This document shows, in pieces, positions 38,466 to 63,983 of a stretch of DNA of 64,000 bases (its first letter is position 1; each line of letters starts with the position of its first letter). A program made the translations under genes and the position numbers. Source of the DNA: Christiangramia fulva (GTDB lineage: Bacteria; Bacteroidota; Bacteroidia; Flavobacteriales; Flavobacteriaceae). The DNA is taken from NCBI RefSeq assembly GCF_003024155.1, contig NZ_CP028136.1, positions 3,782,001-3,846,000 of the forward strand, read 5' to 3'. The notes under the pieces are model-generated. The model saw nothing but the letters and a program-made list of their open reading frames with translations. It was not told where the DNA came from and did no database searches.

Positions 38466-38537
38466 TTGAATACATTTTAAATTGATTCTTTCCGGGGATG
38501 AGAAACATAAAGTATTAAAAATAAAGATTGTAAAAAA

Positions 38538-38551
38538 GGGGAAAAACACCC
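38538..38551. promoter_or_regulatory. GGGGAAAAACACCC motif, copy 1
   Basis: An imperfect inverted repeat (GGGG-N7-CCC) between the terminator of the 2538-residue protein gene and the zinc-ribbon gene. The identical motif is at 46705, in the matching position after the other giant gene. A one-base variant lies at 63967, upstream of the sensor kinase. Confidence 0.5.
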
Positions 38552-38572
38552 TAATTGACTAATAATCAATAA

Positions 38573-38600
38573 AAAAGACTCCCGAAAATGGGAGTCTTTT
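38573..38600 (-). terminator. Terminator of the 2538-residue protein gene
   Basis: AAAAGACTCCC (38573-38583) and GGGAGTCTTTT (38590-38600) form a perfect 11-bp stem around a six-base loop. On the - strand it lies 17 bases after the stop codon. The corresponding stem after the 3136-residue gene has compensating changes. Confidence 0.88.
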
Positions 38601-38616
38601 ACTCATTGAGCTATTT

Positions 38617-41600
38617 TTATTTAATAACCTTAATTTGATATTCCTGGGTTGAACTTTTCACCACAAAGAGATAGATTCCTTCCTCCCATCCACTATGATC
38701 TAGTGGCCAGTAGTATTCTCCCCCATCTTTACTTACGTCAATTGAAGTTTCATCCAGTTGTCTTCCGTAGAGATCGTAAGCTCCTATGTGGAATGTTTCG
38801 TCAATTTCTCTTGGTGAAAAATTAAACCACACACCTTCTGGCTGAAGAGGGTTGGGATAAACGGTTAATCGATAGCTGTTCGAGTATAAGGACAAACTTG
38901 CTGAATAACAGCCAGTAGAAACCATGGTCCTTTTCTTTTCCTTTCCTTTGCTATCTTTCCAGGAAATAGTTACCTGAGTGATTCCTTTGGGATGTACAGG
39001 AGTATAGAAATAATTATCTCCGGGATTTGCTATAAAGGATCCTCTTCCTGCACTTCCTTTATATTTCTTAACCTGCCAATTCACCTCTACACTACATGAA
39101 GAAGGATTGTTGACCAGCCAACGGCTCATATTTTCGACATCTGAGCATACTTCCGAAATATTAAGTATATCATTACCTATACATTCAAGAGGTTCGTCAA
39201 TTCCATCACAATTCTGATCTATTCCATCTCCACGAACATCAAAGGCTCCTGGATAAATGGAATTATCTGAATCATCACAATCAGTGTTTAATAAACTGTA
39301 ACCTTCTCCAGGATCTGAACAATAAGTTTCCCCAGAATCAGATTGAGCTCCAAAGCCATCATTGTCATTATCAACATAATAAATTGTGGTAGCCCTACCG
39401 ATATTTTCATCGAAAGGATCACAATCTTCTTCATCAGCAATTCCATCATTATCATCATCTGGATCACAGATATCTCCCTCTGCATCCCGGTCATAATTTT
39501 CCTGAAGTGGATTATACGTAAAAGGACAATTATCCAGAGAATCAACTATTCCATCACCATCAGAATCTGTTCCTTCCACAGTATCAGGTGTATTAGGGTC
39601 ACAATCATCGTCAATTCCGTTCCCTAAAATTTCGGTTACGGAAGGATTAATAGCAGAATTGCTATCATTACAATCGGTGTTGTCGGCAACATATCCTGAA
39701 GGAGCTGAGCAAGCCTGAACAGAAGTGGCCGCATCTCCATATCCATCAGAATCGATATCTGCATACCAAGTAGAGGCGGTACTCAGGTCAAGATTAGGAT
39801 CCTCATCATCAATCAATCCATCGCAGTCATTGTCAATACCATCACAGACTTCTGTAGCTCCCGGATGAATGGTTGCATTATTATCAACACAATCGGTGTT
39901 ATTTAAAACATAACCGGAAGGTTGTGTACAAGAAGTAGTCGAGACTGCAGGATCACCATAACCGTCACTATCAACATCCGCATACCATACCGTATCAGGA
40001 TTGATAGTAGCATCCGTATCATCACAATCGTTATTATCTAAAACATACCCGGAAGGAGCTGAACAAGCCTCAATAGTATTTCCGGGATCGCCGTAGCTAT
40101 CATTATCAGTGTCGGCATAATACGTAGTTTTCACGCCTTCATCTACCTGTCCGTCACAGTTATTATCTACACCGTCACAGACTTCTATAGCTCCGGGATG
40201 AATGGCAGCATTGCTATCATCACAATCGGTGTTGTTCAAAACATAACCCGTGGGCTGTGTACAAGAATTAGTCGAGACTGCAGGATCACCATATCCATCA
40301 CCATCGGTATCTACATACCAGGTTGCAGGAGAAGCGCCATCATCAATTTGACTATTACAGTCATTATCTTTTCCGTCACAAATCTCTGGAGCTCCGGGAT
40401 AAACCGTATTGTCGTTATCATCACAATCGGTGTTGTCGCCAACATATCCTGAAGGAGCTGAGCAAGCCTGAACAGAAGTGGCCGGATCTCCATATCCATC
40501 AGAATCGCTATCTGCATACCAAGTAGAGGCGGTACTCAGGTCAAGATTAGGATCCTCATCATCAATCAATCCATCGCAGTCATTGTCAATACCATCACAG
40601 ACTTCTGTAGCTCCCGGATGAATGGCAGCATTGCTATCATCACAATCGGTGTTGTTCAAAACATATCCCGTGGGTTGTGTACAAGAATTAGTCGAGACTG
40701 CAGGATCACCATATCCATCACCATCGGTATCTACATACCAGGTTGCAGGAGAAGCGCCATCATCAATTTGACCATTACAGTTATTATCTTTTCCGTCACA
40801 AATCTCCGGTGCTCCGGGATAAACCGTGTTGTCGTTATCATCACAGTCCGTGTTATCGGACACATATCCTGAAGGAGCTGAACAAGCCTCAATAGTATTT
40901 CCAGGATCACCGTATCCATCATTATCAGTGTCGGCATAATACGTAGTTTTTACGCCTTCGTCAATTTGTCCGTCACAGTTGTTATCCACACCGTCACAGA
41001 CTTCTGTAGCTCCCGGATGAATGGCTGCATTATTATCATCACAATCGGTGTTGTTCAAAACATAACCCGTGGGCTGTGTACAAGAAGTAGTCGAGACTGC
41101 AGGATCACCATAGCCATCTCCATCGGTATCTGCATACCAGGTTGTGGGAGAGGCACCATCATCAATTTGACCATTACAGTCATTATCTTTTCCGTCACAA
41201 ATCTCCGGTGCTCCGGGATAAACCGTGTTGTCGTTATCATCACAGTCCGTGTTATCGGACACATATCCTGAAGGAGCTGAACAAGCCTCAATAGTATTTC
41301 CAGGATCACCGTATCCATCATTATCAGTGTCGGCATAATACGTAGTTTTCACGCCTTCATCTACCTGTCCGTCACAGTTATTATCTACACCGTCACAGAC
41401 TTCTATAGCTCCGGGATGAATGGCAGCATTGCTATCATCACAATCGGTGTTGTTCAAAACATAACCCGTGGGCTGTGTACAAGAATTAGTCGAGACTGCA
41501 GGATCACCATATCCATCACCATCGGTATCTACATACCAGGTTGCAGGAGAAGCGCCATCATCAATTTGACCATTACAGTTATTATCTTTTCCGTCACAAA

Positions 41601-44600
41601 TCTCCGGTGCTCCGGGATAAACCGTGTTGTCGTTATCATCACAGTCCGTGTTATCGGACACATATCCTGAAGGAGCTGAACAAGCCTCAATAGTATTTCC
41701 AGGATCACCGTATCCATCATTATCAGTGTCGGCATAATACGTAGTTTTCACGCCTTCATCTACCTGTCCGTCACAGTTATTATCTACACCGTCACAGACT
41801 TCTATAGCTCCGGGATGAATGGCAGCATTGCTATCATCACAATCGGTGTTGTTCAAAACATAACCCGTGGGCTGTGTACAAGAATTAGTCGAGACTGCAG
41901 GATCACCATATCCATCACCATCGGTATCTACATACCAGGTTGCAGGAGAAGCGCCATCATCAATTTGACCATTACAGTTATTATCTTTTCCGTCACAAAT
42001 CTCCGGTGCTCCGGGATAAACCGTGTTGTCGTTATCATCACAGTCCGTGTTATCGGACACATATCCTGAAGGAGCTGAACAAGCCTCAATAGTATTTCCA
42101 GGATCACCGTATCCATCATTATCAGTGTCGGCATAATACGTAGTTTTTACGCCTTCGTCAATTTGTCCGTCACAGTTGTTATCTACACCATCACAGACTT
42201 CTTTAGCTCCCGGATTGACTGTAGCATCATTGTCGTCACAATCAGTGTTGTCGGCAACATATCCTGAAGGAGCTGAACAAGCCTGAACAGAAGTGGCCAG
42301 ATCTCCATATCCATCAGAATCGTTATCTGCATACCACGTGGAGGCAGTACTCAGGTCAAGATCAGGATCCTCATCATCAATCAATCCATCACAGTCATTG
42401 TCAATACCATCACAGACTTCTGTAGCTCCCGGATGAATGGCTGCATTATTATCATCACAATCGGTGTTGTTCAAAACATAACCCGTGGGCTGTGTACAAG
42501 AATTAGTCGAGACTGCAGGATCACCATAGCCATCTCCATCGCTATCTGCATACCAAGTAGAGGCGGTACTCAGGTCAAGATTAGGATCCTCATCATCAAT
42601 CAATCCATCGCAGTCATTGTCAATACCATCACAGACTTCTGTAGCTCCCGGATGAATGGCTGCATTGCTATCATCACAATCGGTGTTGTTCAAAACATAA
42701 CCCGTGGGCTGTGTACAAGAATTAGTCGAGACTGCAGGATCACCATATCCATCACTATCAACATCTGCATACCATACCGTTTCTGGATTGATAGTAGCAT
42801 CCGTATCATCACAATCGGTATTATCTAACACATAACCGGAAGGTTGTGTACAAGAAGTAATCGAGACTGCAGGATCACCATATCCATCACTATCAACATC
42901 TGCATACCATACCGTTTCTGGATTGATAGTAGCATCCGTATCATCACAATCGGTATTATCTAAAACATATCCTCTAGGTTGTGTACAAGAAGTAGTCGAG
43001 ACTGCGGGATCTCCATATCCATCACTATCAACATCTGCATACCATACCGTTTCTGGATTGATAGTAGCATCCGTATCATCACAATCGGTATTATCTAAAA
43101 CATAACCGGAAGGTTGTGTACAAGAAGTAGTCGAGACTGCGGGATCACCATATCCATCACTATCAACATCTGCATACCATACCGTATCAGGATTGATAGT
43201 AGCATCCGTATCATCACAATCGGTATTATCTAAAACATAACCGGAAGGTTGTGTACAAGAAGTAGTCGATACTGCGGGATCTCCATATCCGTCACTATCA
43301 GCATCTGCATACCATACCGTTTCTGGATTGATAGTAGCATCCGTATCATCACAATCGGTATTATCTAAAACATATCCTGTAGGTTGTGTACAAGAGGTAG
43401 TCGATACAGCCGGGTTACCATAACCATCACCATCCGTATCTGCATACCATACCGTTTCTGGATTGATAGTAGCATCCGTATCATCACAATCGGTGTTATT
43501 TAAAACATAACCGGAAGGTTGTGTACAAGAGGTAGTCGATACTGCGGGATCTCCATATCCGTCACTATCAACATCTGCATACCATACCGTTTCTGGATTG
43601 ATAGTAGCATCCGTATCATCACAATCATCATTGGTTGAACTCCAGCCGGTACCAGGATCACTACAGAATAAGGTCCCTGGATCACTGCTATCTCCATAGG
43701 TATCACCATCGCTATCAACATAATAACGTAATGGAGTCTCACAATTAGGAAGAATGTTAACGGTATAATCCTCAACTTCGCCATACTGAAATTCCTCACA
43801 TGGAGAAGGCTTAGAATACATTTTCATAGAAATCCGCATCCTCGTTGGCCCTAAATTAGTAGTGGCAGGAACGGTAAAATCAGCACTGGCTACATTATTA
43901 GAACTACTAATATCTATTGCCAATTCTCCGGGATCTTCAAAATCTCCATCAGCATTATAATCAATCCACGCCCTATAACTTTTTGGAAAGCCTGAACCGG
44001 AAGGACCGGTGTTTTCAATTGTAATATTGTAAAGATTTTCCTGTTGAAGATCTGTAGAAATTGACGTGAAATCTGTATATCCTGAATCATCCCCAGTAGA
44101 TGAGTTATCAATTGTAGAAAATGCAACTCTAGTAATAGAAACGCTAGCATTTGTTCCACTGGATGAACAATAGTCGGTGGTAGAAAAAATCACCGAATTA
44201 GTATAGTCAGATGGACTTCCAGCACATATACTTCGAATCTGAACTTCATATTCGGTTAAAAGTTCGAGGCCATTCAACGTATAAAAAGGATATCGAATAT
44301 CGGGAATATTATTCCAAATTGTAGATCCGGTTTTTCGATATCTTAATTCATAAGATGTGACCCCCTCAATAGGATCCCATGAAAAGGAAGCATAATTGCT
44401 TCCCGCGCCGGTAAGAATAAAGTTTTGAGGTACTGTTGGCCCCGTACAGGCAGCGGCCTCACCAAGAAAAATGGTATAATCTTCAACTTCACCATAATTA
44501 TCACCATTACAGGGATCTCCAACTGACGTATAATGAGTTCGTATTCGCATTCGTTTTGGACCGGCAGGATAACCTACAGGAGCCGTTATATCTGCCAGAA

Positions 44601-46233
44601 ACTGATTACCTCCATTCTCTGACTCATACATTAATTCCGAAGAATCAAAAATTTTATTATCATTCCAGTCAATCCAAACAGACAAGTAGGGATTATAATC
44701 CTGGGTTTCTCCCACATCAACAGTTAAAGCCTGGATTTCTCCTGGAAGAATACATGTTGCTAAAGAAGTATAATCAGCATACCCCTCTCCAATACTAGTG
44801 TTGGAGATTCCCCCTATATTAACAGAGGCTATGTAAAATTCATCTAAATAATTGTTTGGAGGATTAAATAAACAATATTGCGCTGATTCGTCATAATTCG
44901 CTACATAATGTTTCATCTCCCTGACTGTCCTCGCCCCATCTCCTTCAACAGGATCGCCAGCCGCTTGTCCTAAATGAGTAACACCCGGATCTGAAAAATA
45001 GGGTATGTGTGTTGTTGGATTTCCATCAGTAAATTCTGTTGAATTCTGATAGGTCATTATATCAGAATAATATAAGCCATCAGAACCCTGCCATCTCCAT
45101 CCTGCAGACCAGGTATTTTCCGGCCAGTCATACCAGTTTGTGGGCCCCGGATCGGTGGCTTGATATTTATTATGTCCAACGCCCATCATATGTCCGATCT
45201 CATGAATAAATGCATCGGTATATAAGGCATAATTTACCCTGACGTTAGAAAAGGCTTGTGCAGGTGCTCCGAAACGAGATTTTAACGGAGTAGAAATACC
45301 TCCATTACCAGAGGTGGGATAAGATGTAAGCATAATTACCAAATCCCCAGCATAATTTTTTCGGAGCTCATGAACATTATCTAAAATTCCGTCATTAATC
45401 TGCAAAAGAGCTCCCCAATCTGTACCCAGGCTTTGTTCGGTGTAATTTACCTGTTCCGAATGACTTAAATTAAATACTACGCCTACGCCATTGTTAGTTA
45501 CAACCTGATTCGCCTGAGAAATTGCACTTGCTATTACTGCATCTATATCGGTGCCATTGTCTATAGCCCATGTTGAGGCTGCCGGAGTGTAAACTACCAA
45601 CAAATTTATTGTTGCTGTTTCCTGTTCTCCTGGTAAAGTGACTGAACAACTTGAAGGGTCAACAATAATATTTGATGCCTTAAAAGAATTATTTAAATTT
45701 TTTGAGGTTTTTTTCTGTATTCCATCTGAAGAAGTTCCACATTTAAAGTCTTTATATATTTTTTCATCCAGGCGAAATAAATAAGTTTTACCTGTAGCAA
45801 TATTTTTCTTTGTAATATACCGGGCATTTAACTCAGGTATTTCAATATTTATTAAATAAGAACTTTTCGAAATAGTGATATACCCGAAGGCATATTCATA
45901 ATTTTTAAGTTTTAAATTTATTGAGGTTACTCCGTTAACATCAGTATTCATATTCTGAATAACAGAATTGAATTTCCTATTGTCAAATAATTCCAATTTG
46001 ATGAGATCACCTTTGTTTAACCTTTTATAATTTTTAATTTCCGAATTAAGCTGAAAAGGCCTTGCTCTACTTGCATTGGAGAAAAAAGGCCGATTTCTCT
46101 CTGCCGATCCAATTTCGCCAGGAATTGAACCTCCCTCATTAATATTAATTTGATTTTGCGCAGTTATTGTTAAAGACAATAAAATTGAAAGATAAAATAG
46201 ATTATCTCTTAAGAAAAGGTAAAAATTTCCCAT
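38617..46233 (-). CDS. Giant secreted metzincin protein with MopE-type repeats and T9SS sorting domain
   Basis: A 2538-residue secreted protein (signal L-F-Y-L-S-I-L-L-S-L-T-I-T-A before Q-N). Residues about 205-450 are a reprolysin-like metalloprotease with zinc motif H-E-I-G-H-M-M-G-V-G-H at 344-354 and Met-turn M393 in D-I-M-T-Y. Two GEVED domains (about 465-590 and 695-830) flank a fibronectin type III domain. From about 836 to 2350 there are some two dozen D-C-D-D... / D-G-D-G-Y-G-D repeats of the MopE putative metal-binding type, many with C-D-G-x-D-N-x-C-D-G. The last 80 residues are a type A T9SS sorting domain, so it should be exported and anchored on the cell surface. Likely an adhesin or surface protease needing Ca2+; cofactor binding is inferred. 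Confidence 0.9.
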   Translation of the reverse strand: MGNFYLFLRDNLFYLSILLSLTITAQNQININEGGSIPGEIGSAERNRPFFSNASRARPFQLNSEIKNYKRLNKGDLIKLELFDNRKFNSVIQNMNTDVNGVTSINLKLKNYEYAFGYITISKSSYLINIEIPELNARYITKKNIATGKTYLFRLDEKIYKDFKCGTSSDGIQKKTSKNLNNSFKASNIIVDPSSCSVTLPGEQETATINLLVVYTPAASTWAIDNGTDIDAVIASAISQANQVVTNNGVGVVFNLSHSEQVNYTEQSLGTDWGALLQINDGILDNVHELRKNYAGDLVIMLTSYPTSGNGGISTPLKSRFGAPAQAFSNVRVNYALYTDAFIHEIGHMMGVGHNKYQATDPGPTNWYDWPENTWSAGWRWQGSDGLYYSDIMTYQNSTEFTDGNPTTHIPYFSDPGVTHLGQAAGDPVEGDGARTVREMKHYVANYDESAQYCLFNPPNNYLDEFYIASVNIGGISNTSIGEGYADYTSLATCILPGEIQALTVDVGETQDYNPYLSVWIDWNDNKIFDSSELMYESENGGNQFLADITAPVGYPAGPKRMRIRTHYTSVGDPCNGDNYGEVEDYTIFLGEAAACTGPTVPQNFILTGAGSNYASFSWDPIEGVTSYELRYRKTGSTIWNNIPDIRYPFYTLNGLELLTEYEVQIRSICAGSPSDYTNSVIFSTTDYCSSSGTNASVSITRVAFSTIDNSSTGDDSGYTDFTSISTDLQQENLYNITIENTGPSGSGFPKSYRAWIDYNADGDFEDPGELAIDISSSNNVASADFTVPATTNLGPTRMRISMKMYSKPSPCEEFQYGEVEDYTVNILPNCETPLRYYVDSDGDTYGDSSDPGTLFCSDPGTGWSSTNDDCDDTDATINPETVWYADVDSDGYGDPAVSTTSCTQPSGYVLNNTDCDDTDATINPETVWYADTDGDGYGNPAVSTTSCTQPTGYVLDNTDCDDTDATINPETVWYADADSDGYGDPAVSTTSCTQPSGYVLDNTDCDDTDATINPDTVWYADVDSDGYGDPAVSTTSCTQPSGYVLDNTDCDDTDATINPETVWYADVDSDGYGDPAVSTTSCTQPRGYVLDNTDCDDTDATINPETVWYADVDSDGYGDPAVSITSCTQPSGYVLDNTDCDDTDATINPETVWYADVDSDGYGDPAVSTNSCTQPTGYVLNNTDCDDSNAAIHPGATEVCDGIDNDCDGLIDDEDPNLDLSTASTWYADSDGDGYGDPAVSTNSCTQPTGYVLNNTDCDDNNAAIHPGATEVCDGIDNDCDGLIDDEDPDLDLSTASTWYADNDSDGYGDLATSVQACSAPSGYVADNTDCDDNDATVNPGAKEVCDGVDNNCDGQIDEGVKTTYYADTDNDGYGDPGNTIEACSAPSGYVSDNTDCDDNDNTVYPGAPEICDGKDNNCNGQIDDGASPATWYVDTDGDGYGDPAVSTNSCTQPTGYVLNNTDCDDSNAAIHPGAIEVCDGVDNNCDGQVDEGVKTTYYADTDNDGYGDPGNTIEACSAPSGYVSDNTDCDDNDNTVYPGAPEICDGKDNNCNGQIDDGASPATWYVDTDGDGYGDPAVSTNSCTQPTGYVLNNTDCDDSNAAIHPGAIEVCDGVDNNCDGQVDEGVKTTYYADTDNDGYGDPGNTIEACSAPSGYVSDNTDCDDNDNTVYPGAPEICDGKDNDCNGQIDDGASPTTWYADTDGDGYGDPAVSTTSCTQPTGYVLNNTDCDDNNAAIHPGATEVCDGVDNNCDGQIDEGVKTTYYADTDNDGYGDPGNTIEACSAPSGYVSDNTDCDDNDNTVYPGAPEICDGKDNNCNGQIDDGASPATWYVDTDGDGYGDPAVSTNSCTQPTGYVLNNTDCDDSNAAIHPGATEVCDGIDNDCDGLIDDEDPNLDLSTASTWYADSDSDGYGDPATSVQACSAPSGYVGDNTDCDDNDNTVYPGAPEICDGKDNDCNSQIDDGASPATWYVDTDGDGYGDPAVSTNSCTQPTGYVLNNTDCDDSNAAIHPGAIEVCDGVDNNCDGQVDEGVKTTYYADTDNDSYGDPGNTIEACSAPSGYVLDNNDCDDTDATINPDTVWYADVDSDGYGDPAVSTTSCTQPSGYVLNNTDCVDNNATIHPGATEVCDGIDNDCDGLIDDEDPNLDLSTASTWYADIDSDGYGDAATSVQACSAPSGYVADNTDCNDSNSAINPSVTEILGNGIDDDCDPNTPDTVEGTDSDGDGIVDSLDNCPFTYNPLQENYDRDAEGDICDPDDDNDGIADEEDCDPFDENIGRATTIYYVDNDNDGFGAQSDSGETYCSDPGEGYSLLNTDCDDSDNSIYPGAFDVRGDGIDQNCDGIDEPLECIGNDILNISEVCSDVENMSRWLVNNPSSCSVEVNWQVKKYKGSAGRGSFIANPGDNYFYTPVHPKGITQVTISWKDSKGKEKKRTMVSTGCYSASLSLYSNSYRLTVYPNPLQPEGVWFNFSPREIDETFHIGAYDLYGRQLDETSIDVSKDGGEYYWPLDHSGWEEGIYLFVVKSSTQEYQIKVIK
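40070..42300 (-). repeat. 399-bp higher-order coding repeats in the giant metzincin gene
   Basis: The region repeats a 133-residue superunit made of three MopE-type motifs. Two adjacent copies, 41340-41738 and 41739-42137, are identical by eye; those on either side are close but diverged. Such identity means recent unequal crossing-over or gene conversion. Exact copy number may be uncertain in assemblies. Confidence 0.8.
42690..43630 (-). repeat. Seven 135-bp tandem coding repeats in the giant metzincin gene
   Basis: GGATTGATAGTAGCATCC recurs at 42785, 42920, 43055, 43190, 43325, 43460 and 43595, exactly 135 bases apart (one copy begins CAGGATTG). Each unit encodes 45 residues of the form D-C-D-D-T-D-A-T-I-N-P ... 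Y-A-D-x-D-S-D-G-Y-G-D. An eighth isolated copy is near 39998. These short units lack the C-D-G-x-D-N half of the full MopE motif. Confidence 0.85.
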
Positions 46234-46704
46234 TGTTAGAAGTGTTAGTTAGTAAAATTACCTGTAGGAAAAAGCAGATCAATTTTAAAAGAAAAGGGAC
46301 AACTTGTAGGGAATTTAATATTATACAATTTCTTGTATAAATTTTAAATAATTGGATACCAATTATTTGGAAGTTTAAATTAAGGGCTTTTATCGTTTTC
46401 CTATATAAAGGAAAACCCTTTATTTTAGTTTTTCCTTATCATTATTTTCATAGCTATAAATTTTATAAAGGTTCTCTCTATCTCTTAGGAAATCAGTTAA
46501 TAAGGATCTTTCAAATTTGCTTCGATTGAAAGCTTTCTAGCGGTTATTTTTTTTCAGTTCAATCCAATCTTGCTTAGAATTTGATTATAAATATCTTTAA
46601 TTATAAGTAAAGAGTCTCGTAGGGAATACCGAATGGGATTTGTAATCTTTCTGTATCAAAAAAGTAGGTTGGTGCAATATAAATAATCATGTAAATTCTG
46701 AAAA

Positions 46705-46718
46705 GGGGAAAAACACCC
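46705..46718. promoter_or_regulatory. GGGGAAAAACACCC motif, copy 2
   Basis: Identical to the copy at 38538 and differing by one base from 63967. It lies after the terminator of the 3136-residue gene and about 470 bases upstream of the metzincin gene start. Confidence 0.5.
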
Positions 46719-46739
46719 TAATTAACTAATAATCAATAA

Positions 46740-46767
46740 AAAAGACTCTCTAAAGTGAGAGTCTTTT
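46740..46767 (-). terminator. Terminator of the 3136-residue protein gene
   Basis: AAAAGACTCTC (46740-46750) and GAGAGTCTTTT (46757-46767) form a perfect 11-bp stem with a six-base loop. It lies 17 bases past the stop codon on the - strand. Confidence 0.88.
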
Positions 46768-46783
46768 ACTTATTGAGCTAATT

Positions 46784-56194: not shown

Positions 56195-56237
56195 AAGTAT
56201 ACTCTTTAATGGTTAGTTATAAATTGAAATATTTAAA

Positions 56238-56259
56238 GAAGAGTATGTAGGGAAACTCT
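56238..56259. promoter_or_regulatory. AAGAGT...ACTCTT dyad containing GTAGGGAA
   Basis: AAGAGT (56238-56243) and ACTCTT (56254-56259) form a perfect inverted repeat around ten bases that hold GTAGGGAA. It lies about 45-65 bases upstream of the 3136-residue gene start (56194). An AAGAGT...GTAGGGAA arrangement also occurs at 46610-46627. A binding site for a regulator of the surface proteins is a reasonable guess. Confidence 0.4.
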
Positions 56260-56295
56260 TTATTTTATAATGGTTATTTTAGATGTATGACTGTA

Positions 56296-58350
56296 TTAAT
56301 ACTCTACCGTTATTTCATTGGAACAATAGGCACTATTGGGAATGCAAACTTTTATAGTTTCTATACCACTACCTTTGCCTATTTGTAAAGTTTCATTTCC
56401 ATCATTTGGTACTGTAACATATAGGCTGCCATTTCTATAGATTTCAATGTTATCGGAAGTACCCGAAGGAGTCCAGGAAAGATTGGCATAAGATCTACCT
56501 CTACTTGTACTTACTTCTGCAGATAATTGAAGGTCTACCGGCTGGGGCTCAGGAAGGGGTTGAACTTTTATATACATCTGTTTATTGTCAGTTCCTCCCC
56601 TATCATCGGTAATAACAAGAGAAACTTCAAATATTCCTTCTGCTTTATAGGTATAAGAAGGATTATGAAGATTAGAGGTCGAACCATCCCCAAAGTCCCA
56701 ACTCCATTTTTGAATTGAACCATCAGGATCCGTACTTCCATCCCAAAAATTAACCTTTAAACCTTCCGAGGAAAATCCAAAATCAGCAATTGGAGACATA
56801 TTGGCCAACAGCGATGGGTCATCTACAAATACTGGAGTAATGGTTTCAGAACAATTAACATAACTCAATTCACATATTTGAAATACATCGTCGCCTTTGC
56901 CTGTGGTCGTCAGTTTGTATACTCCCTCATTATACCATTGGGAATATTTTATGCCGTTTTTATAAATTTCTACCATCTCATCATTGGTCGGATCCCAGGT
57001 GAGTGAGATAGTTATTGTTCTCTTATCTTTATATGCTAGGGCTTTTAAATTAAGATTTGGTGGATCTGGTGGTGTAAAACTAACTTGACCCCACTGGCTA
57101 TTTAAAAAGTTGTTATTACCGTCTACTACGTCATTAATATAGTTCGATGTGGAATTTGCAATAATGGCATTACTGACCTCTTCGGGCGAGGAATCATTAT
57201 TTTTTTCGAGATATAATGCTACTACTCCAGCTACATGAGGTGAAGCCATAGAAGTACCACTTTTTTCAGTTGACGAGGTATTATCTTCGTTCGAAGCAGA
57301 GGTAATATTAACCCCTGGAGCATAGAGATCAACACAGTCACCATAATTAGAAAAATAAGCCGCCCTGTTATAAATATCGCTGGCACCAACTGTCAAAGCT
57401 TCGGGTACTTTTGCCGGGGAATAAAGACATGCATCATCTCTACTGTTTCCGGCCGCTATTACATAATTAATTCCTGTTTGAATAGAGTTTTGAATGGCTA
57501 TGTCTAGGGGATTAGTTCCAGAATTAGATGGACCTCCCAAACTCATATTGACCACAGCTGGTTTAATTGCGTTGGCAGTAACCCAATCTACTGCAGCTAT
57601 CACCCTTGATTCAGGAGTACTACCAATGCAACCAAATACACGCACCGAAACTAATTTGACTTCTTTAGCTACTCCAAAAGTTTTTCCACCAACGGTTGCG
57701 GCTACATGAGTTCCATGACCGAGGCAATCCTCACCAGCATTTTGATTTGGATCAGTATTTCCAGGATCTTCTTCAAGAACAAAATCATGGCCATTGGAAG
57801 CTCTTCCTTCAAATTCTTCATGGGAGTAATTGATCCCAGAGTCAATAATATAAGCGGTTACCCCTTTCCCTGTAGCTGTATAGGTATAAGCCCGATCCAT
57901 TTTGATCTCTCGTTGATCAATTTTGTCAAGTCCCCAGGTAGGATAATCCTGAACGGTAATATCTCCATTGGTAGCCAGAGTTTGATCTTCCTTTATAAAT
58001 TCTACCAACGGATTATGTTTTAATGCTTCTAACTGATTTGGATTTAAGTTAGCAGCAAAACCTGTAAGGGTATGTTTGTATTTATATTTAACCTGACGAT
58101 CAGGAATATTTAGTTTTTGAGAAAGATTGTTCAGTACTGATGCCGCCTGGGAACTCATAGCAGCTGGTTTGGAAGATAAAACAATTATATATCCGGCCGC
58201 AAATTTATCAGAATTTTGCCTTACCGAAAGATCAGATTTATTATAACCATTTTCTTCTACTATATTTTCCCGTGTACAAGACCCAAAAATCAATAAAATA
58301 ATTAATAGGAAAGCAAATCGGAAAAAGCCCTTAAATAAATTAGTTTTCAT
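56296..58350 (-). CDS. Subtilisin-like protease lipoprotein with PKD domain
   Basis: A 684-residue S8 serine protease. A lipoprotein signal (I-F-G-S-C, cysteine near residue 25) is followed by an I9-type propeptide (about 50-120). The catalytic triad is D170 (Y-I-I-D-S-G), H215 (G-H-G-T-H-V) and S367 (G-T-S-M-A-S-P), and N in the oxyanion region is supplied by A-A-G-N-S near residue 305. A beta-sandwich (about 435-510), a PKD domain (about 525-605) and a second sandwich (about 615-684) follow, giving surface-binding modules. No T9SS domain is present; it is held by lipid. It lies just upstream of the giant adhesin gene and could process surface proteins. The target is inferred. Confidence 0.92.
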   Translation of the reverse strand: MKTNLFKGFFRFAFLLIILLIFGSCTRENIVEENGYNKSDLSVRQNSDKFAAGYIIVLSSKPAAMSSQAASVLNNLSQKLNIPDRQVKYKYKHTLTGFAANLNPNQLEALKHNPLVEFIKEDQTLATNGDITVQDYPTWGLDKIDQREIKMDRAYTYTATGKGVTAYIIDSGINYSHEEFEGRASNGHDFVLEEDPGNTDPNQNAGEDCLGHGTHVAATVGGKTFGVAKEVKLVSVRVFGCIGSTPESRVIAAVDWVTANAIKPAVVNMSLGGPSNSGTNPLDIAIQNSIQTGINYVIAAGNSRDDACLYSPAKVPEALTVGASDIYNRAAYFSNYGDCVDLYAPGVNITSASNEDNTSSTEKSGTSMASPHVAGVVALYLEKNNDSSPEEVSNAIIANSTSNYINDVVDGNNNFLNSQWGQVSFTPPDPPNLNLKALAYKDKRTITISLTWDPTNDEMVEIYKNGIKYSQWYNEGVYKLTTTGKGDDVFQICELSYVNCSETITPVFVDDPSLLANMSPIADFGFSSEGLKVNFWDGSTDPDGSIQKWSWDFGDGSTSNLHNPSYTYKAEGIFEVSLVITDDRGGTDNKQMYIKVQPLPEPQPVDLQLSAEVSTSRGRSYANLSWTPSGTSDNIEIYRNGSLYVTVPNDGNETLQIGKGSGIETIKVCIPNSAYCSNEITVEY

Positions 58351-58466
58351 AAGATTCCTTTTAAAAATTAATTTTCTAAATAATTACACTAAAGGATTGA
58401 GGGCTTAAATCCGGCTCAAGCTTGGATTTATAATTTTAAAAATAGATGGAATAAGAATAGTAATCA

Positions 58467-58484
58467 ATCCCCTTTTGGGGGGAT
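58467..58484. promoter_or_regulatory. ATCCCC-TTTTGG-GGGGAT palindrome upstream of the subtilase gene
   Basis: A perfect 6-6-6 inverted repeat, 117-134 bases upstream of the subtilase start, in the 158-base gap after the beta-helix gene. A related CCCC-TTTAT-AGGG element is at 858-877 of the 60 kb block (60858-60877). Such dyads fit a NarL-type response regulator, though none is proven to bind here. Confidence 0.4.
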
Positions 58485-58508
58485 AAAATCCAAAAAGTTA
58501 AAATTAAA

Positions 58509-60188
58509 TTATTTAAAGGTGGTAAGAACTGACTGTTCGCAGGCAGAAAATTTATTATTTTGTTTAAGTGCAGAAATTAAGGGGATAAGGGAATCTGAAG
58601 GTTTTGTATTGATGATTTTTATTCCCACAGGATAATTCTTAATGATATTCTTTTTATCTGGCGTGGCTCCTCCTATTAGATTTTCATTCGCATTTTCCAG
58701 GGAAATAGCATATTTACTCGATGATAGTGATGCTTTAGGTTTAGAAGATGACATGAACTTGTTATCGTAAAAACAATTAAAATCGGCGTTTTTTATTTCA
58801 ATTCCCGCGATTGTGTTGCCTGAAAATAGATTATCGTGTATGGTGTTATATGCGCAAATGGTATCTTCTGCTATCATTTTTATTCCAACTCCATTAGACA
58901 GGTTTATATTTCCAGAACAATCAGTGCCAATGAAGTTATATCTAACGATATTAAGTTGTGTGCTTTCCAGTAAAATACCGGTATCATCGCTATTGGCAAT
59001 TATATTTTCTTCGATGATATTGGAATAGCTCCCAACGCAATGAATTGCAATACCATTCCCAAGATCCAGTTTACCCTCTACATCAGTGCCAAAGAAGTTA
59101 CCCGAGATTCTGTTATTTTTAGAAAATATTCTAAAATTTATCTTTGGATTAAATCTATCTGCAACATATACTCCCGTTTCATTTCCGGCAATAATATTTC
59201 CCTGCCCGGGCAGGCCTATTATATTTTCTTTACTAGCGCGTATAAATATCCCTTTTTTCTGTACTGGAAGAGATATATTTTTATTCACATCAGGACCCAC
59301 TATATTGTTAATAAAGGTAATATTACTACTTCTTATTTCCACACCATACTCATTAGCTGAAATTAAATTTGAACTAATAAAATTATTATTCCCATTAGGA
59401 GAAAAATCTAAACCTGTAATTTGCCCTGTTTCCTTTTTCCCAGTCCAATCTGTTCCTATATAATTTCCTATTATTTTATTTTTGGAAGATGAGATCAACA
59501 TCCCAGCCCAGTTTCCGGAAATAACATTTCGCTCATTCTCATTATAACTTCCTATTTGATTATTTTCAGAAATCACGTAAATCCCAAAAATATTAGGCAA
59601 TCTAGTTTTTCCGTCACCTTCAACTCCAATAAAATTAGATTCTATAAGATTATTTTCCGTATTGATGTTTATTCCACATCCCATACTAAATTCGATAATC
59701 CTACCTTTTGGATCCACAATTTTTTTTCCAAATCCTCCAATGACGAATCCTTTGATAATACTTCCTGAACTATTTCTTTCTAATTTAAAACCCGTTGGAG
59801 TTAAATCTTCATTTTCTATACGCTGTTTTCGAGTAACCCCGCGAACTTCGGCGCCATCCAGAATTATTTGTAAGCAACCGGGTTGATAGTCTTTTTGAGT
59901 AGTCGCATCTAAAATTATTGTTTCGGTTAGTTTGGGAAGATTCTTCTTTAATTTTATACGGTGAGGACCTATGCCGGGAATATTGAAAAAGACGAGTGTC
60001 TTATCTGGATATTTATTAGCGTTTTCTATTGCTGCACGCAGGGTGCAATTTCCATTCTTATCGGCACATACTTTATCAGCCAAATCAATATCGGGATAAT
60101 CATCTGAACTATTGACCGTAAATTGATCCTGAGCAATCAAATTTGCATAGAGAAATAGGAAAGAAAAAAATAGCATCATTTTTTTCAT
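58509..60188 (-). CDS. Secreted right-handed beta-helix (CSLREA/NosD-like) protein
   Basis: A 559-residue exported protein (signal L-F-F-S-F-L-F-L-Y-A-N-L-I-A before Q-D). The N-terminal motif C-x6-C-T-L-R-A-A-I-E-N-A-N near residues 42-55 is a CSLREA variant. The rest is rich in N-x-I/V-x-G-N and N-x-I-x-x-N-x-I patterns of parallel beta-helix coils (for example R-N-V-I-S-G-N-W-A-G). There is no T9SS sorting domain, no catalytic residues are obvious, and the length is plausible for a carbohydrate-binding or structural fold. Its start overlaps the response regulator stop by four bases (60185-60188), so it is co-translated with a regulator, which is unusual for a secreted protein. Confidence 0.88.
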   Translation of the reverse strand: MKKMMLFFSFLFLYANLIAQDQFTVNSSDDYPDIDLADKVCADKNGNCTLRAAIENANKYPDKTLVFFNIPGIGPHRIKLKKNLPKLTETIILDATTQKDYQPGCLQIILDGAEVRGVTRKQRIENEDLTPTGFKLERNSSGSIIKGFVIGGFGKKIVDPKGRIIEFSMGCGININTENNLIESNFIGVEGDGKTRLPNIFGIYVISENNQIGSYNENERNVISGNWAGMLISSSKNKIIGNYIGTDWTGKKETGQITGLDFSPNGNNNFISSNLISANEYGVEIRSSNITFINNIVGPDVNKNISLPVQKKGIFIRASKENIIGLPGQGNIIAGNETGVYVADRFNPKINFRIFSKNNRISGNFFGTDVEGKLDLGNGIAIHCVGSYSNIIEENIIANSDDTGILLESTQLNIVRYNFIGTDCSGNINLSNGVGIKMIAEDTICAYNTIHDNLFSGNTIAGIEIKNADFNCFYDNKFMSSSKPKASLSSSKYAISLENANENLIGGATPDKKNIIKNYPVGIKIINTKPSDSLIPLISALKQNNKFSACEQSVLTTFK

Positions 60189-60826
60189 TCCAGTTCAATT
60201 TTTTCAGATAGTACTTTCGCTATTGCCTCTTTCCCACAGTTTACATGAAGTTTAGTATAAATATTCTTTAAATGCGAACGGCAGGTTTCGTAGGCTATCC
60301 CCAATTCTGATGCCATATATTTTATACTGTAACCTTTTACCAGAAGGTTTAAAACCTGAATTTCTCTTTCAGTAAGATCGTAAGAGAATGTTGATTTTCT
60401 TTCTATCTGTTTGAAAGAGCTTAAGACTTTTTTTGCTATCGAAGGCGACATTGGTGCACCGCCTTTTTCAACTTCTTTAATTGCCTTTACCAATTTGAAA
60501 GGTGAAGTTTTTTTCAGAACGTAGCCATCTGCTCCGGCACATAAACTTTTAAAAAGTTTTTCATCATCTTCAAACTGGGTGTACATCACAATATGAATAA
60601 GTGGATTAAATTCCTTTATTATTGGTATCGCCCAGATACCGTCTTTACCCGGCATATCTATATCTAAAATAACAATATCCGGATTTAACTTTTCCAGTAT
60701 ATTTTTCACATCTAAAACATTTGAAAAATCACCCACAAGAAAATATCCTTCCTCGTTTTGAAGCAAGGAAACCATAGATGCCCTTAGAGAATCATTATCC
60801 TCGAAAATTAAAAGGCGTGAATTCAT
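60185..60826 (-). CDS. NarL/LuxR-type response regulator
   Basis: A 213-residue response regulator. The receiver domain (1-120) has the acidic pair E9/D10, the phosphorylated D55 in V-I-L-D-I-D-M-P-G, T83 in M-Y-T-Q and the conserved lysine in Y-V-L-K-K near 104. The C-terminal LuxR helix-turn-helix covers about 150-213 (L-T-E-R-E-I-Q-V-L-N-L-L, then Y-E-T-C-R-S-H-L-K-N-I-Y-T-K-L). It is 62 bases downstream of the sensor kinase gene and is the obvious partner. Its stop overlaps the beta-helix gene start by four bases. Targets may be the G-run/C-run motifs in this block; that is inference. Confidence 0.93.
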   Translation of the reverse strand: MNSRLLIFEDNDSLRASMVSLLQNEEGYFLVGDFSNVLDVKNILEKLNPDIVILDIDMPGKDGIWAIPIIKEFNPLIHIVMYTQFEDDEKLFKSLCAGADGYVLKKTSPFKLVKAIKEVEKGGAPMSPSIAKKVLSSFKQIERKSTFSYDLTEREIQVLNLLVKGYSIKYMASELGIAYETCRSHLKNIYTKLHVNCGKEAIAKVLSEKIELE

Positions 60827-60857
60827 ACACCAATTTACATATAATCCTAACTCTTAT

Positions 60858-60877
60858 CTATCCCCTTTATAGGGCAG
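60858..60877. promoter_or_regulatory. CTATCCCC-TTTAT-AGGGCAG element before the response regulator gene
   Basis: An imperfect dyad (CCC-TTTATA-GGG) in the 62-base gap between kinase and response regulator genes. It resembles the element at 58467 and raises the possibility of autoregulation. Confidence 0.35.
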
Positions 60878-60887
60878 AATTGATTTT

Positions 60888-63800
60888 CTAGTTCCTTCCT
60901 AAAAATTTTTTCCACAAATTCGGTTTATCAACAGGCAAAGAAATACTTATTGTTGTTCCTTTATTTATTTCGGAAGTTATTTCTAATTGTCCTTTCCAGT
61001 TCTTTATGCGTTTTTTCAGGTTCACCAAACCATTTCGGTGCGTGATCTGCTGAGGATCAAAGCCCCGGCCATCATCATGGTATATTAAACGAATTGAGTT
61101 ACCAATTTTTCTTATTTCAATAGTGACATTTTGAGCATTTGAATGCCTTACAATATTGTTTATGATCTCTTTGCTTATTAAAAAAAGCTCCCGTCTCTTA
61201 TGCATCTTAAGATTTACGGAACTAAAATTTTCATTTTTTATAATCTTATAAGATATATCAGCACTTTCCAGGAATTCTCCGGCATAACGAATTATTTTGG
61301 CTATTATCTCCTCTACAGATTCATCGGTTAACCTAATATTCCAAACAATTTCATCTAAAGCTTCTGAGGACGCCCGAACTTCCTTTTCAATATCTTCCAA
61401 CACTTTCGTAACCGATTCTTTCTGGTTTCTGTAAATAGCTGAAAGCAAATTAATTGAAGTTAAACGTGATCCAAGATCGTCGTGGAGATCTGCTGATATT
61501 TTATCTTTCACCTTCTGCATTTCCATCCATCGGTTTAGTCTATACCTGTAAACGGAGTAAATGACTAAAATTATTAGGGTAATAATTAGAAAAATAAACC
61601 ACCAGGTCCGCCAGAATGGTGTGTCAATATGAATTCCCATGGTACTTACCGGTGCAAATTTATGAATTACATTATTTAAACGGACTTTGAATTTATAATC
61701 TCCCGGTGGCAAATTGGTGTAGGATGTAAAATTACGACTTCCTGAATTTATCCAATTTTTGTCATAACCCTCAAGCATATATTGATAATTAAAGTTATCT
61801 GAAAAAAGATAATTTGGAGCTGAATAGGTTAATGCTAAAGAATTTTGATTGTAACTGAGTTGGATATTTTTAAGATATACAGTATTCGTATCCCTTTTTA
61901 TAGGAATATTGTCTACTAAAACCTCGTTGATCCTAACATCGATCTCTTCGGGTTTATACTTAAAATTATCAGGCGTAAAGAAGTTTAGTCCGTTGATCCC
62001 TCCAAAGTAAATGGTGCCTTCGGTATCTTTATAATATGAACCGGCTATAAATTCCTTACCCTGAAGACCATTAGCAGGATGAAATTGCTGGATTTCCTCA
62101 ATATTTATTTTATCGCCGACCTTTTCGTAAGTCAGACGAAGTAATCCTTCATTGGTGCTGATCCATAATTTTCTGGAATTTTCCTCCACAATCCCATTAA
62201 TGATATTGGTAGTAAGACCACTTTTTTTACCAAAATTTATAAATTTTCCCGTATTTAAATTAATGGCATATAATCCCTTTCCAGAAGTACCGATCCATAA
62301 CCAGTTATTCAGGTAATAAAGAGTATTTATAACCACATTTTTCAACTCTCTGTTTACAGTTTTACTTAACTCTTGAAATTCCAGATCTTTTTCACTGAAA
62401 AGTTGAATTCCTCCAGGATCAAATCCTACAGCGATGAGCGAATCATTAATTCTTGTTATAGATTTAACCGCGCTATTATCCGCGCCATGAGGAGAAAATT
62501 CTTTTACCTCTCCAGATGATTTATTTAAAGAAATTAAACCGGAAGACTGACTACCAGCCCAAAGATTATCCTGCGAGCCTTCCAGTAAACACCAGATGAT
62601 CTTTTTTTTCTCCTCCTCATCGTCAAACACTTTTTTTTCATTGGTTTTTGAATTAATTACGGCAATCCCGCGCCCGTGAGTTCCCATCCAAATATTTCCT
62701 TGCTTATCTGCCCGCAGTGCATTGATTCTCAGTTTATTTTCGGTTTTAAAAAGGGAATCTACTTTGATACGTTGGAAAGAATATTCATCAATCTGTTTGA
62801 TTAGATTCCCATCTGCAGCTAGCCAGAGATTATTATCCTTATCTTTAGTGATGGCCCGCGTTTGATATAATGAAATTTCTTTTGATAGATTTTGGACATC
62901 TAAAAAGTGAAAATCTCTAAAACTCTTATCAAAATAGTTAATACCTCCGCCTTCCGTGCCTATCCAAATAGCGCCTTCACTGTCTTCAAAAATGCACAAA
63001 ATATAATTGCTTGAAAGGGTACCTCGCCTATTTTTATTGGTTACCAAATGCTCATTATTCCTATATTTCTTATCTAAAAGATATAAGCCCTGCCCATAAG
63101 TTCCCAACCATTGCATAGCATCATCTTTATGATGATGTGATAAATGAACATATTTAGGAGCATTGGATTTATGGAATTGGTTTGAATTTACCGGAAGTAC
63201 GAATTGATATTCCTTGGTGTTGCCAAAAAAAAGATTACCAAATAATTCTTCAGCCCATATAATATTTTCACCGGATAAATAAGAAGCGGTATGGTTTTTC
63301 TGTATCTCATTTATCCCGTTATCTGTAAGTATCCAAATTTTATTAGTAGAATCTTTGAAAAGCTTATTGATTTTATCGGAGCTGATTTTATTAGATAAAG
63401 GTGCAGTAGCATAAAAACGACTAATAATATCCATATTCCTATTTACCAGGTAAACTCCATCATTCCTGGTAGCCAGCCATATTTTGTTATCATCTTCTAT
63501 CAATAGGTCTATCAAAGGAGGAATAACAATCTCTGAATTATTAAATTTCAAATACTTGCAAAAATCGCCTGTCTTAAGAGCCATCTTTTCAAGTCTGCCC
63601 CCACGAACTATCATCCATAAATCTTCGCCGTACACTTCTATTCTTCCCGTTCGCACATCAGTTCCGGAAACATTAAAATCAAACGATATAGGATAATAGG
63701 TGAAATTAGTACCATCATATTTGTTAAGGCCATCGGGAGTAGCGATCCACATATAATTTAAACTATCCTGGGTAATATCAAGCACGGTATTTTGAGAAAG

Positions 63801-63911
63801 CCCATTTTCAACACTTATATTCCGGAACCAATAGTTCTGCTCCTGACTGCTTAATAAGTTTGAAAAAAAAAGCAAAAGGTTTAAAAAAATAAATTTCCAA
63901 ATACTTATCAT
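60888..63911 (-). CDS. Y_Y_Y/propeller sensor histidine kinase
   Basis: A 1007-residue membrane kinase. After a signal (W-K-F-I-F-L-N-L-L-L-F-F) the periplasmic part consists of regulatory beta-propeller repeats (about 25-650; for example V-E-N-G-L-S-Q-N-T-V-L-D-I and M-W-I-A-T-P-D-G-L-N) and a Y_Y_Y domain near 690-755 (L-E-G-Y-D-K-N-W-I-N-S-G, Y-T-N-L-P-P-G-D-Y-K-F). A single membrane helix is near 763-785. The HisKA_3 phosphoacceptor is H810 in L-H-D-D-L-G-S-R, and the ATPase domain has K-E-I-I-N-N-I-V-R-H and D-D-G-R-G-F-D. This is the two-protein version of the Bacteroidota hybrid sensors. The ligand is presumably a glycan or envelope signal. Confidence 0.93.
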   Translation of the reverse strand: MISIWKFIFLNLLLFFSNLLSSQEQNYWFRNISVENGLSQNTVLDITQDSLNYMWIATPDGLNKYDGTNFTYYPISFDFNVSGTDVRTGRIEVYGEDLWMIVRGGRLEKMALKTGDFCKYLKFNNSEIVIPPLIDLLIEDDNKIWLATRNDGVYLVNRNMDIISRFYATAPLSNKISSDKINKLFKDSTNKIWILTDNGINEIQKNHTASYLSGENIIWAEELFGNLFFGNTKEYQFVLPVNSNQFHKSNAPKYVHLSHHHKDDAMQWLGTYGQGLYLLDKKYRNNEHLVTNKNRRGTLSSNYILCIFEDSEGAIWIGTEGGGINYFDKSFRDFHFLDVQNLSKEISLYQTRAITKDKDNNLWLAADGNLIKQIDEYSFQRIKVDSLFKTENKLRINALRADKQGNIWMGTHGRGIAVINSKTNEKKVFDDEEEKKKIIWCLLEGSQDNLWAGSQSSGLISLNKSSGEVKEFSPHGADNSAVKSITRINDSLIAVGFDPGGIQLFSEKDLEFQELSKTVNRELKNVVINTLYYLNNWLWIGTSGKGLYAINLNTGKFINFGKKSGLTTNIINGIVEENSRKLWISTNEGLLRLTYEKVGDKINIEEIQQFHPANGLQGKEFIAGSYYKDTEGTIYFGGINGLNFFTPDNFKYKPEEIDVRINEVLVDNIPIKRDTNTVYLKNIQLSYNQNSLALTYSAPNYLFSDNFNYQYMLEGYDKNWINSGSRNFTSYTNLPPGDYKFKVRLNNVIHKFAPVSTMGIHIDTPFWRTWWFIFLIITLIILVIYSVYRYRLNRWMEMQKVKDKISADLHDDLGSRLTSINLLSAIYRNQKESVTKVLEDIEKEVRASSEALDEIVWNIRLTDESVEEIIAKIIRYAGEFLESADISYKIIKNENFSSVNLKMHKRRELFLISKEIINNIVRHSNAQNVTIEIRKIGNSIRLIYHDDGRGFDPQQITHRNGLVNLKKRIKNWKGQLEITSEINKGTTISISLPVDKPNLWKKFLGRN

Positions 63912-63930
63912 AGAAATTGTTACGCGACTA

Positions 63931-63938
63931 CAAATCTA
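63931..63938 (-). promoter_or_regulatory. -7 element of the sensor kinase gene
   Basis: On the - strand TAGATTTG fits TAnnTTTG exactly, 20 bases before the kinase start. Position and strand are right for the main promoter of the kinase-regulator-beta-helix transcript. Confidence 0.55.
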
Positions 63939-63966
63939 ATTTAGTATAATAAACTGGATTTAAACA

Positions 63967-63983
63967 GGGGAAAATCACCCCCC
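63967..63983. promoter_or_regulatory. GGGGAAAATCACCC motif upstream of the kinase promoter
   Basis: GGGG-AAAATCA-CCCCCC lies about 29-45 bases upstream of the -7 element, around where activators bind. Fourteen bases match the copies at 38538 and 46705 apart from one A/T change. This copy is not part of the long duplicated block, so the sequence has been retained or arisen independently. Confidence 0.5.

Follow-up and report, generated by a model that had tools for sequence, protein, structure and literature searches.

Three kinds of two-component system come closest to the one described here. The hybrid two-component sensors (HTCS) of Bacteroides carry a Reg_prop and Y_Y_Y sensor, the NarL/DesR/VraR-type systems join a HisKA_3 kinase to a LuxR regulator, and PorXY-SigP reportedly controls the type IX secretion system (T9SS) in Porphyromonas gingivalis. 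We know of few propeller sensor kinases outside polysaccharide loci that have a known target site. The subject of this analysis is a 64,000-nucleotide window of Christiangramia fulva (C1:3782001–3846000 of the one-contig, 4.38-Mb genome), in which a propeller kinase (HK), a response regulator (RR) and an exported beta-helix protein (HELIX) are followed by a subtilase lipoprotein (SUBT) and two giant T9SS proteins (giantA and giantB). HK shares its sensor domains with the HTCS and, with RR, its families with the NarL/DesR/VraR-type systems; like PorXY-SigP, the locus suggests two-component control touching T9SS in Bacteroidota. We give a probability of about 0.6 to a three-part envelope signalling module, in which HELIX would be the partner of HK, and RR would activate itself and exported outputs through an operator. 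All functions discussed are read from sequence.

The Locus and the Proposed Mechanism

The six genes lie on the minus strand in the order HK, RR, HELIX, SUBT, giantA, giantB. A first-pass annotation had described them as consecutive on one strand, and the gene order and the domains of all six agree; the low end of its span, 38538, falls just inside the next open reading frame (ORF) as listed (zinc-ribbon-like, 37929–38549).

60888..63911, minus strand: HK, propeller and Y_Y_Y sensor with HisKA_3/HATPase kinase, 1007 aa (domain matches; PDB relatives)
60185..60826, minus strand: RR, NarL/LuxR-type response regulator, 213 aa (REC and LuxR helix-turn-helix domains, Asp55)
58509..60188, minus strand: HELIX, exported CSLREA-like right-handed beta-helix, 559 aa (domain scans, alignment, structure model)
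56296..58350, minus strand: SUBT, subtilase lipoprotein with I9, S8 and PKD domains (domains, intact triad)
46784..56194, minus strand: giantA, fn3/CARDB/SprB/MopE giant with T9SS tail, 3136 aa (domain scans)
38617..46233, minus strand: giantB, metzincin (HEIGHMMGVGHN) with GEVED, fn3 and MopE repeats and T9SS tail, 2538 aa (domain scans)

In the mechanism that we propose, the propellers and Y_Y_Y domain of HK would be placed in the periplasm. HELIX would be exported as the dedicated partner of HK, either a co-sensor or a ligand-presenting subunit, and the ligand would probably be a glycan. Phosphorylated RR would bind a 7-6-7 inverted repeat adjoining the −33 region of its target promoters and activate its own operon (RR-HELIX) together with exported outputs. 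The predicted direct outputs in this genome are RR-HELIX and the SUBT lipoprotein, with giantA possibly reached by read-through; giantB would be an associated surface metalloprotease, probably transcribed independently.

The motifs required of the two signalling proteins are intact. HK has Reg_prop, Y_Y_Y, HisKA_3 (24.4 bits, cut-off 24) and HATPase domains in a Pfam-type scan, its phospho-accepting histidine in LHDDLGS (residues 809–815), and a signal peptide and one transmembrane stretch, read by eye. There is no fused receiver, no domain being found after the HATPase (residues 906–995 of 1007). The sensor matches PDB entries 4a2l and 3v9f at E values of 6e-69 and 9e-65, and the kinase part matches DesK. 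The adjacent REC-LuxR regulator, RR, has the phospho-acceptor Asp55.

The intergenic gaps are 61 bp (HK–RR), −4 bp (RR–HELIX), 158 bp (HELIX–SUBT), 101 bp (SUBT–giantA) and 550 bp (giantA–giantB), which makes a single transcription unit for all six genes unlikely. The 550-bp spacer holds a terminator-like stem and a T run. On the minus strand, a terminator scan of 55900–58700 gave no hit, which makes read-through from SUBT into giantA possible. Rfam (gathering cut-offs) and tRNA scans of the window gave no match.

The Predicted Operator

On comparing upstream regions side by side, we saw a recurrent palindrome with a Bacteroidota −7 box behind it. The predicted operator is a 7-6-7 inverted repeat, AATCACC-N6-GGKGATT, and a −7 box of the form TAnnTT comes after it at a distance of 22–23 nt. 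The sites in C. fulva are as follows.

60860..60877, minus strand: predicted RR operator upstream of RR, CTGCCC-TATAAA-GGGGAT, an imperfect palindrome (16.2 bits, matrix without C. fulva sites)
60830..60837, minus strand: predicted RR promoter, −7 box TAAATTGG ending 3 nt short of the RR ATG (sequence)
58467..58484, minus strand: predicted RR operator upstream of SUBT, ATCCCC-CCAAAA-GGGGAT (27.9 bits, best in 80 kb)
58437..58444, minus strand: predicted SUBT promoter, −7 box TATTTTTA (sequence)

The Bacteroidota promoter has a −7 consensus of TAnnTTTG and a TTTG near −33, the latter reportedly not found in Flavobacterium johnsoniae (PMC7366714). Seven stretches that carry module or target genes contain, counting both strands, 25 CCN6GGKGAT strings, with TAnnTT at 22 nt in 13 and at 23 nt in 2; nine of the 10 strings lacking a spaced TAnnTT appear to be these palindromes read in the opposite direction. 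We built a matrix from 14 sites outside C. fulva and scanned both strands of 80 kb of its genome. After the two sites listed above, the next score was −1.4, and 60 simulated 80-kb strands reached a maximum of 7.1. When each genus was left out in turn, its sites scored 8.6–42.1 and were the top of their loci.

In all four module genomes seen, C. fulva included, the operator with a spaced TAnnTT lies upstream of RR, and the RR −7 box ends 2–3 nt before the RR start codon (3 nt here; 60826–60840). Given where transcription starts relative to a −7 box, the RR mRNA would be leaderless, since the box ends so close to the start codon. Four sites were held out, in that they were found after the pattern had been fixed. 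In Gillisia, they precede RR and a homologue of giantB; in Cecembia, they precede an 846-aa T9SS protein and a 356-aa gene. The giantB homologue (46% identical over 844 aa) has its operator ~150 bp before the start and comes immediately after a subtilase relative that is in two pieces; the 846-aa protein adjoins the first Cecembia HK, and the 356-aa gene is preceded by the third SUBT of Cecembia.

At five of six loci with sister RRs that lack HELIX, a site immediately precedes an exported-looking gene (10.0, 15.5, 4.5, 17.6 and 7.5 bits). The genes are three similar 177–188-aa proteins, a CHU_C T9SS protein and a 121-aa protein. The sites of the first three have GGCGATTG in place of GGKGATTG, and one also has TC for CC. 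These 177–188-aa proteins have no Pfam match over cut-off and lie after sister HK-RR pairs of the Gillisia group (L212:16514–17047, L214:8634–9200, L215:15534–16079).

The SUBT upstream regions of three congeners without HK-RR-HELIX there score −12.9, −12.8 and −18.3, and the best scores in 15 non-module stretches (L105–L107, L061, L218–L220, L058–L060, L062, L052, L053, L055 and L207, an Algoriphagus stretch away from its module) run from −12.3 to 8.1. In C. fulva the matrix scan found no operator upstream of HK, giantA or giantB; the best upstream scores were −25.7 for giantA and −16.5 for giantB, where the 95% point of simulated 560-bp stretches was −16.0. The sequence and spacing of the operator are observed; binding by RR and activation as its effect are inferred. 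RR quite probably uses the 7-6-7 operator.

HK, RR and HELIX in Other Bacteroidota

A profile scan of named genomes gave at least 13 HELIX-like loci. Among the loci listed, four (L056 and L065 of Cecembia, L057 of Gillisia, L063 of Algoriphagus) have an HK relative adjoining HELIX, three of these with RR; five (three Gelidibacter, Winogradskyella, Gramella KN1008) have helix proteins of 889–948 aa without an HK-RR pair; and four have distant large proteins. At two Gelidibacter loci, a hybrid propeller kinase lies upstream with one or two genes between. T9SS tails were seen on the helix protein of KN1008 (scan) and, going by the domains precomputed for the entries that matched, in G. gilvus and a Winogradskyella.

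The module genomes besides C. fulva are a Gillisia metagenome-assembled genome (MAG), Cecembia lonarensis and Algoriphagus limi, with RR 64–69%, HK 30–41% and HELIX 30–39% identical. HELIX directly follows RR in C. fulva (4-bp overlap) and Gillisia (42 bp), and HK in Algoriphagus (5 bp) and Cecembia (5 and 82 bp); a sixth copy (L065) comes after an HK piece, the ORFs overlapping. The orders are: in Gillisia, HK-RR-HELIX, a PD40 propeller gene and, 0.7 kb on and on the opposite strand, a 1965-aa giantB homologue with an internal helix domain; in Cecembia, HK-HELIX-RR-SUBT, two Fib_succ_major proteins, then HK-HELIX-SUBT-HK(start), with HK(part)-HELIX-SUBT on a second contig; and in Algoriphagus, RR-Fib_succ_major-SUBT-HK-HELIX. 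In the last two genera, HELIX is paired with HK and has no operator, and it is RR, the pseudo-subtilases described below and the Fib_succ_major lipoproteins that have one; this favours a place for HELIX on the sensor side. On the two Cecembia contigs, one RR was seen, alongside two full HK-HELIX pairs and an incomplete third.

A wide protein search extends the linkage by proxy. Free-standing HELIX matches share the size of the longest contig with an RR match in 8 of 20 cases, against 3 of 98 for other helix proteins (Fisher p 2e-5; a proxy for linkage, the RR matches being the best 120 of 3454). The best relatives of HK (64%), RR (82%) and HELIX (57%) all have the value 7793, which suggests one contig. 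The RRs among the best 120 of 3454 are 61–82% identical, with Salinimicrobium, Psychroflexus, a Cyclobacteriaceae MAG and Algoriphagus as named sources; for the first two genera, the identity is 64–67%. In a class sample, 87 of 395 genomes have an RR match at 1e-40 (seven candidates scored per genome), and besides C. fulva only G653 (61%), G567 (57%) and G725 (52%) exceed 50% identity. A plasmid collection held no RR match at 1e-50.

Within the genus sample (24 genomes, C. fulva included), HK has no orthologue in the 23 others, the best matches being 28–29% identical frames of 1345 aa; propeller kinases are abundant, with 20 HK matches in this genome. Among 149 family genomes, HELIX was found only in C. 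fulva and three others, those three being parts of 949–967-aa frames. A HELIX profile found C. fulva and two short partial matches among 296 order genomes; of 251 genomes around G653, 35 gave partial matches, which fall within frames of 797–1216 aa. A contig scan of named genomes with the HELIX sequence alone gave no match. No paper on this gene combination was found among those judged by title or abstract opening. We take the HK-RR-HELIX core to be a conserved module. Of the gene order that the first-pass annotation proposed to search for, the HK-RR-HELIX linkage recurs outside this strain; the full six-gene order was seen only in this genome.

The HELIX Protein

HELIX overlaps the RR stop by 4 bp at its start and has a signal peptide. 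Domain scans for a T9SS tail on it found none, and since it has a signal peptide without a sorting tail, the periplasm is its likeliest predicted location. It scores 13.7 bits against TIGR04214 (CSLREA, cut-off 25) and the Algoriphagus HELIX 19.1, both below the cut-off, so we label it CSLREA-like only; the helix inside the Gillisia giantB homologue scores 25.9. The structure model (pLDDT 85) found alginate epimerases AlgE4/AlgG, PL6 lyases, tailspikes and RbmB in Foldseek, with low TM-scores of about 0.2–0.5. Because these share that general fold, we read HELIX as a right-handed beta-helix.

In a 21-sequence alignment, D369 is nearly invariant, and past residue 59 no Asp, Glu, His, Lys or Arg is invariant; a binding role would therefore be likelier than a catalytic one. 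In the HELIX tree, free-standing HELIX groups apart from the T9SS-fused helices (87/89, 88% of bootstraps). Its place on the sensor side and the nature of its ligand are predictions, and we put HELIX as a sensor partner slightly below even odds.

The Subtilase and the Giant Proteins

SUBT has a lipobox-like LLIFGSC, the domains I9, S8 and PKD, and an intact triad (D170/H215/S367); the triad is intact in the congeners G157 and G162 as well. Orthologues (45–52%) are present in three of 23 congeners, each adjoining an AraC gene: AraC-SUBT-zinc ribbon in G157; AraC and a SUBT split in two ORFs in G152, with no zinc-ribbon ORF found; and AraC-SUBT in G162, where the contig ends with a 302-aa ORF. 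In the stretches read at these three loci, there is no HK, RR, HELIX or giant. Therefore, SUBT was probably resident and HK-RR-HELIX, at 34% GC, arrived beside it; otherwise, the congeners lost the cassette. Four Cytophagales relatives match the C. fulva, G157 and G162 SUBT at 100–167 bits, against at most 51 bits for eight other congener subtilases. All four, from Cecembia and Algoriphagus, have lost the Asp, His and Ser and are pseudo-subtilases; the structure model of one was poor (pLDDT 60).

The tails of the two giants are part of a duplication.

46701..47028, minus strand: giantA copy of the 328-bp T9SS tail and terminator duplication (sequence comparison)
38534..38861, minus strand: giantB copy of the 328-bp T9SS tail and terminator duplication (sequence comparison)

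In full, giantA has PAP-N/fn3, six CARDB and two Flg_new_2 stretches, SprB, MopE and the T9SS tail; giantB has a reprolysin domain, two GEVED, fn3, 16 MopE stretches and the tail. Against TIGR04183 (cut-off 23), the tails score 26.7 and 27.9 in giantA and 26.4 in giantB, but 19.3 for giantB in a whole-protein scan. Against PF18962, giantA scores 24.9, under the cut-off of 27, and giantB is not among the matches. Ten T9SS tails were found in the genome, two of them on these proteins. As the first-pass annotation had seen, the giants share a sorting cassette, here 94.5% identical from the tail (YPNPLQPEG) through the terminator into the downstream spacer. The terminator stem is altered on both sides between copies (GACTCTC...GAGAGTC vs GACTCCC...GGGAGTC); these changes compensate one another, and the pair looks like a recent duplication or the product of gene conversion. 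GiantA has three fn3-type repeats of ~243 aa (residues 154, 397 and 640) that closely resemble one another, and a CSxDxW... domain, for which the scan listed no Pfam match, occurs twice near its C-terminus.

The N-terminal 680 residues of giantB have a relative in two of 397 family genomes, C. fulva included (two candidates scored per genome). The relative in G262 (a 3312-aa frame) has a hybrid propeller kinase ~200 bp after it (L220:5118–9074). All giantB relatives seen are near a propeller kinase or an operator; this is suggestive only, because the cases are few and propeller kinases numerous. Control of the giants by RR is unsupported here because neither has an operator and giantB lies behind a terminator; the operator at the Gillisia giantB homologue gives the idea indirect support. 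It is unlikely that this RR controls giantB in this strain. The giants look like looser additions beside the module. The earlier proposal of two-component control of the whole set thus survives for RR itself and SUBT, where the operator predicts it, and falls short for giantA and giantB, which lack the operator, giantB being also separated by the terminator and the 550-bp gap.

Weighing the Alternatives

The alternative that survives best, at well short of even odds, is an ordinary two-component system in which HK senses a small ligand directly and HELIX is a further exported output, such as an adhesin or glycan-binding protein. HELIX lies downstream of the RR operator in C. fulva and Gillisia, and therefore it could be an output. 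Three sister systems have an exported-looking protein after RR, each with its own operator-like site, and the sensors of the same propeller type in 4a2l and 3v9f bind their ligands without a partner. Against this, HELIX in Cecembia and Algoriphagus is coupled to HK outside the operator-driven units, and HK-HELIX pairs have multiplied where one RR was seen.

A surface-gene island is somewhat unlikely: a hot spot by the conserved AraC gene would have gathered unrelated surface genes, with only the resident SUBT old. The AraC-SUBT loci of G157, G152 and G162 fit it, as does Gramella KN1008, where a helix-MopE-T9SS fusion protein (L061:9971–12790) stands in the place of SUBT at the same locus. The AraC and pseudouridine-synthase proteins that flank the locus here share 59% and 73% identity with their KN1008 counterparts. 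The GC content of HK, RR and HELIX, 34% against 38–43% in seven other window genes, fits as well. Yet the operator lies upstream of the resident SUBT, SUBT relatives accompany HK-HELIX in Cytophagales too, and giantB homologues stand beside propeller kinases or carry the operator; for giantA, nothing counts against the island.

That the palindrome is another regulator's site or an RNA hairpin, present in these loci by chance, is improbable: off-module sites exist and the 7-bp arms could pair in RNA, but the repeat stands a fixed 22–23 nt before the −7 box, and so outside the predicted transcript, and it occurs at RR-HELIX and most sister-RR loci and at none of the congener SUBT genes.

Several results weigh against the module with HELIX as partner and RR acting through the operator. 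The motif was first spotted by eye in upstream regions that included the C. fulva sites. Counting the full pattern (22-nt spacing, with the reversed pattern as control) gives 9 (1) in Cecembia, 5 (0) in Gillisia and 4 (1) in Algoriphagus, but 3 (3) in C. fulva, where only place and score distinguish the sites at the module. Seven genomes without the module have 12 matches together (control 11), two of them, G653 and G567, having sister RRs. Without the −7 box, the pattern fails to separate module genomes (9, 17, 11, 12) from others (10, 5, 12, 12, 9, 6, 14). One of three matches is off-module in C. fulva, two of four in Algoriphagus and four of nine in Cecembia, and one of five in Gillisia (L203:3063, 36.0 bits) lies just past the end of a giantB relative with no same-strand gene near. 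The off-module stretches L199, L201, L202 and L203 of the Cecembia and Gillisia genomes score 19.1–36.0. The off-module Cecembia sites (L199:2716, L200:3824, L201:11202, L202:9849) are of the CCTGTAYRGGGGATT type, two being identical, and could be sites of a different regulator or part of a repeat. Among sister loci, G567 has no site, and the scores 4.5 and 7.5 are close to the simulated maximum; the 8.1 score (L052, G150) is inside a gene, yet above that maximum.

The distribution is also narrow. Among the matches listed, the module is in just three named genomes besides C. fulva, and an RR match at 1e-65 was found in one of 397 family genomes, C. fulva itself, and in none of the 396 others (seven candidates scored per genome). 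By the longest-contig proxy, only 1 of 20 HELIX matches coincides with the HK list. The HELIX clade lacks strong support. In the RR tree (27 rows), HELIX-linked RRs are not one clade, two changes being needed and 0% of bootstraps having one; three sister Gillisia-group RRs cluster together outside.

Beyond the module itself, we tentatively entertain, at rather less than even odds, a three-component Bacteroidota sensing system. In it, HK would read its own exported, apparently non-catalytic HELIX, a captive relative of the helices of T9SS proteins; several HK-HELIX pairs would share one RR with a leaderless mRNA; and the operator would drive lipoproteins (subtilase or pseudo-subtilase) and giant T9SS proteins. 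If true, this would account for the free-standing beta-helix proteins that have no sorting signal and accompany sensors.

Comparison with Known Systems

In the HTCS, a receiver and an AraC helix-turn-helix are fused to the kinase, and HK is thus not an HTCS by that criterion. Here there is a HisKA_3 kinase, a separate NarL-type RR and a linked beta-helix, with no SusCD or carbohydrate-active enzyme among the six genes. The NarL/DesR/VraR-type systems lack the propeller input, the exported beta-helix partner and the predicted operator proposed here, and the NCBIfam equivalog scores listed are all far under cut-off. In contrast to PorXY-SigP, RR is predicted to act on lipoproteins and cargo rather than on the secretion machine, and it scores 42.9 bits against the PorX model NF052313 (cut-off 300), so it is not a PorX.

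Among the associated proteins, the protease domain of giantB is similar to that of the Mep72 metzincin, but at 73 bits against a cut-off of 645. The HELIX model has the general fold of AlgE4/AlgG, PL6 and tailspike beta-helices, differing in the absence of any invariant charged residue or His past residue 59. The CspC and CspBA pseudo-subtilases of Clostridioides difficile have a sensing role, and like them, the Cecembia and Algoriphagus relatives are subtilase-type proteins with a lost triad; that these too sense is a guess, and the C. fulva SUBT differs in its intact triad. Set beside these systems, one subfamily of propeller kinases gains a proposed operator, its spacing and a target list.

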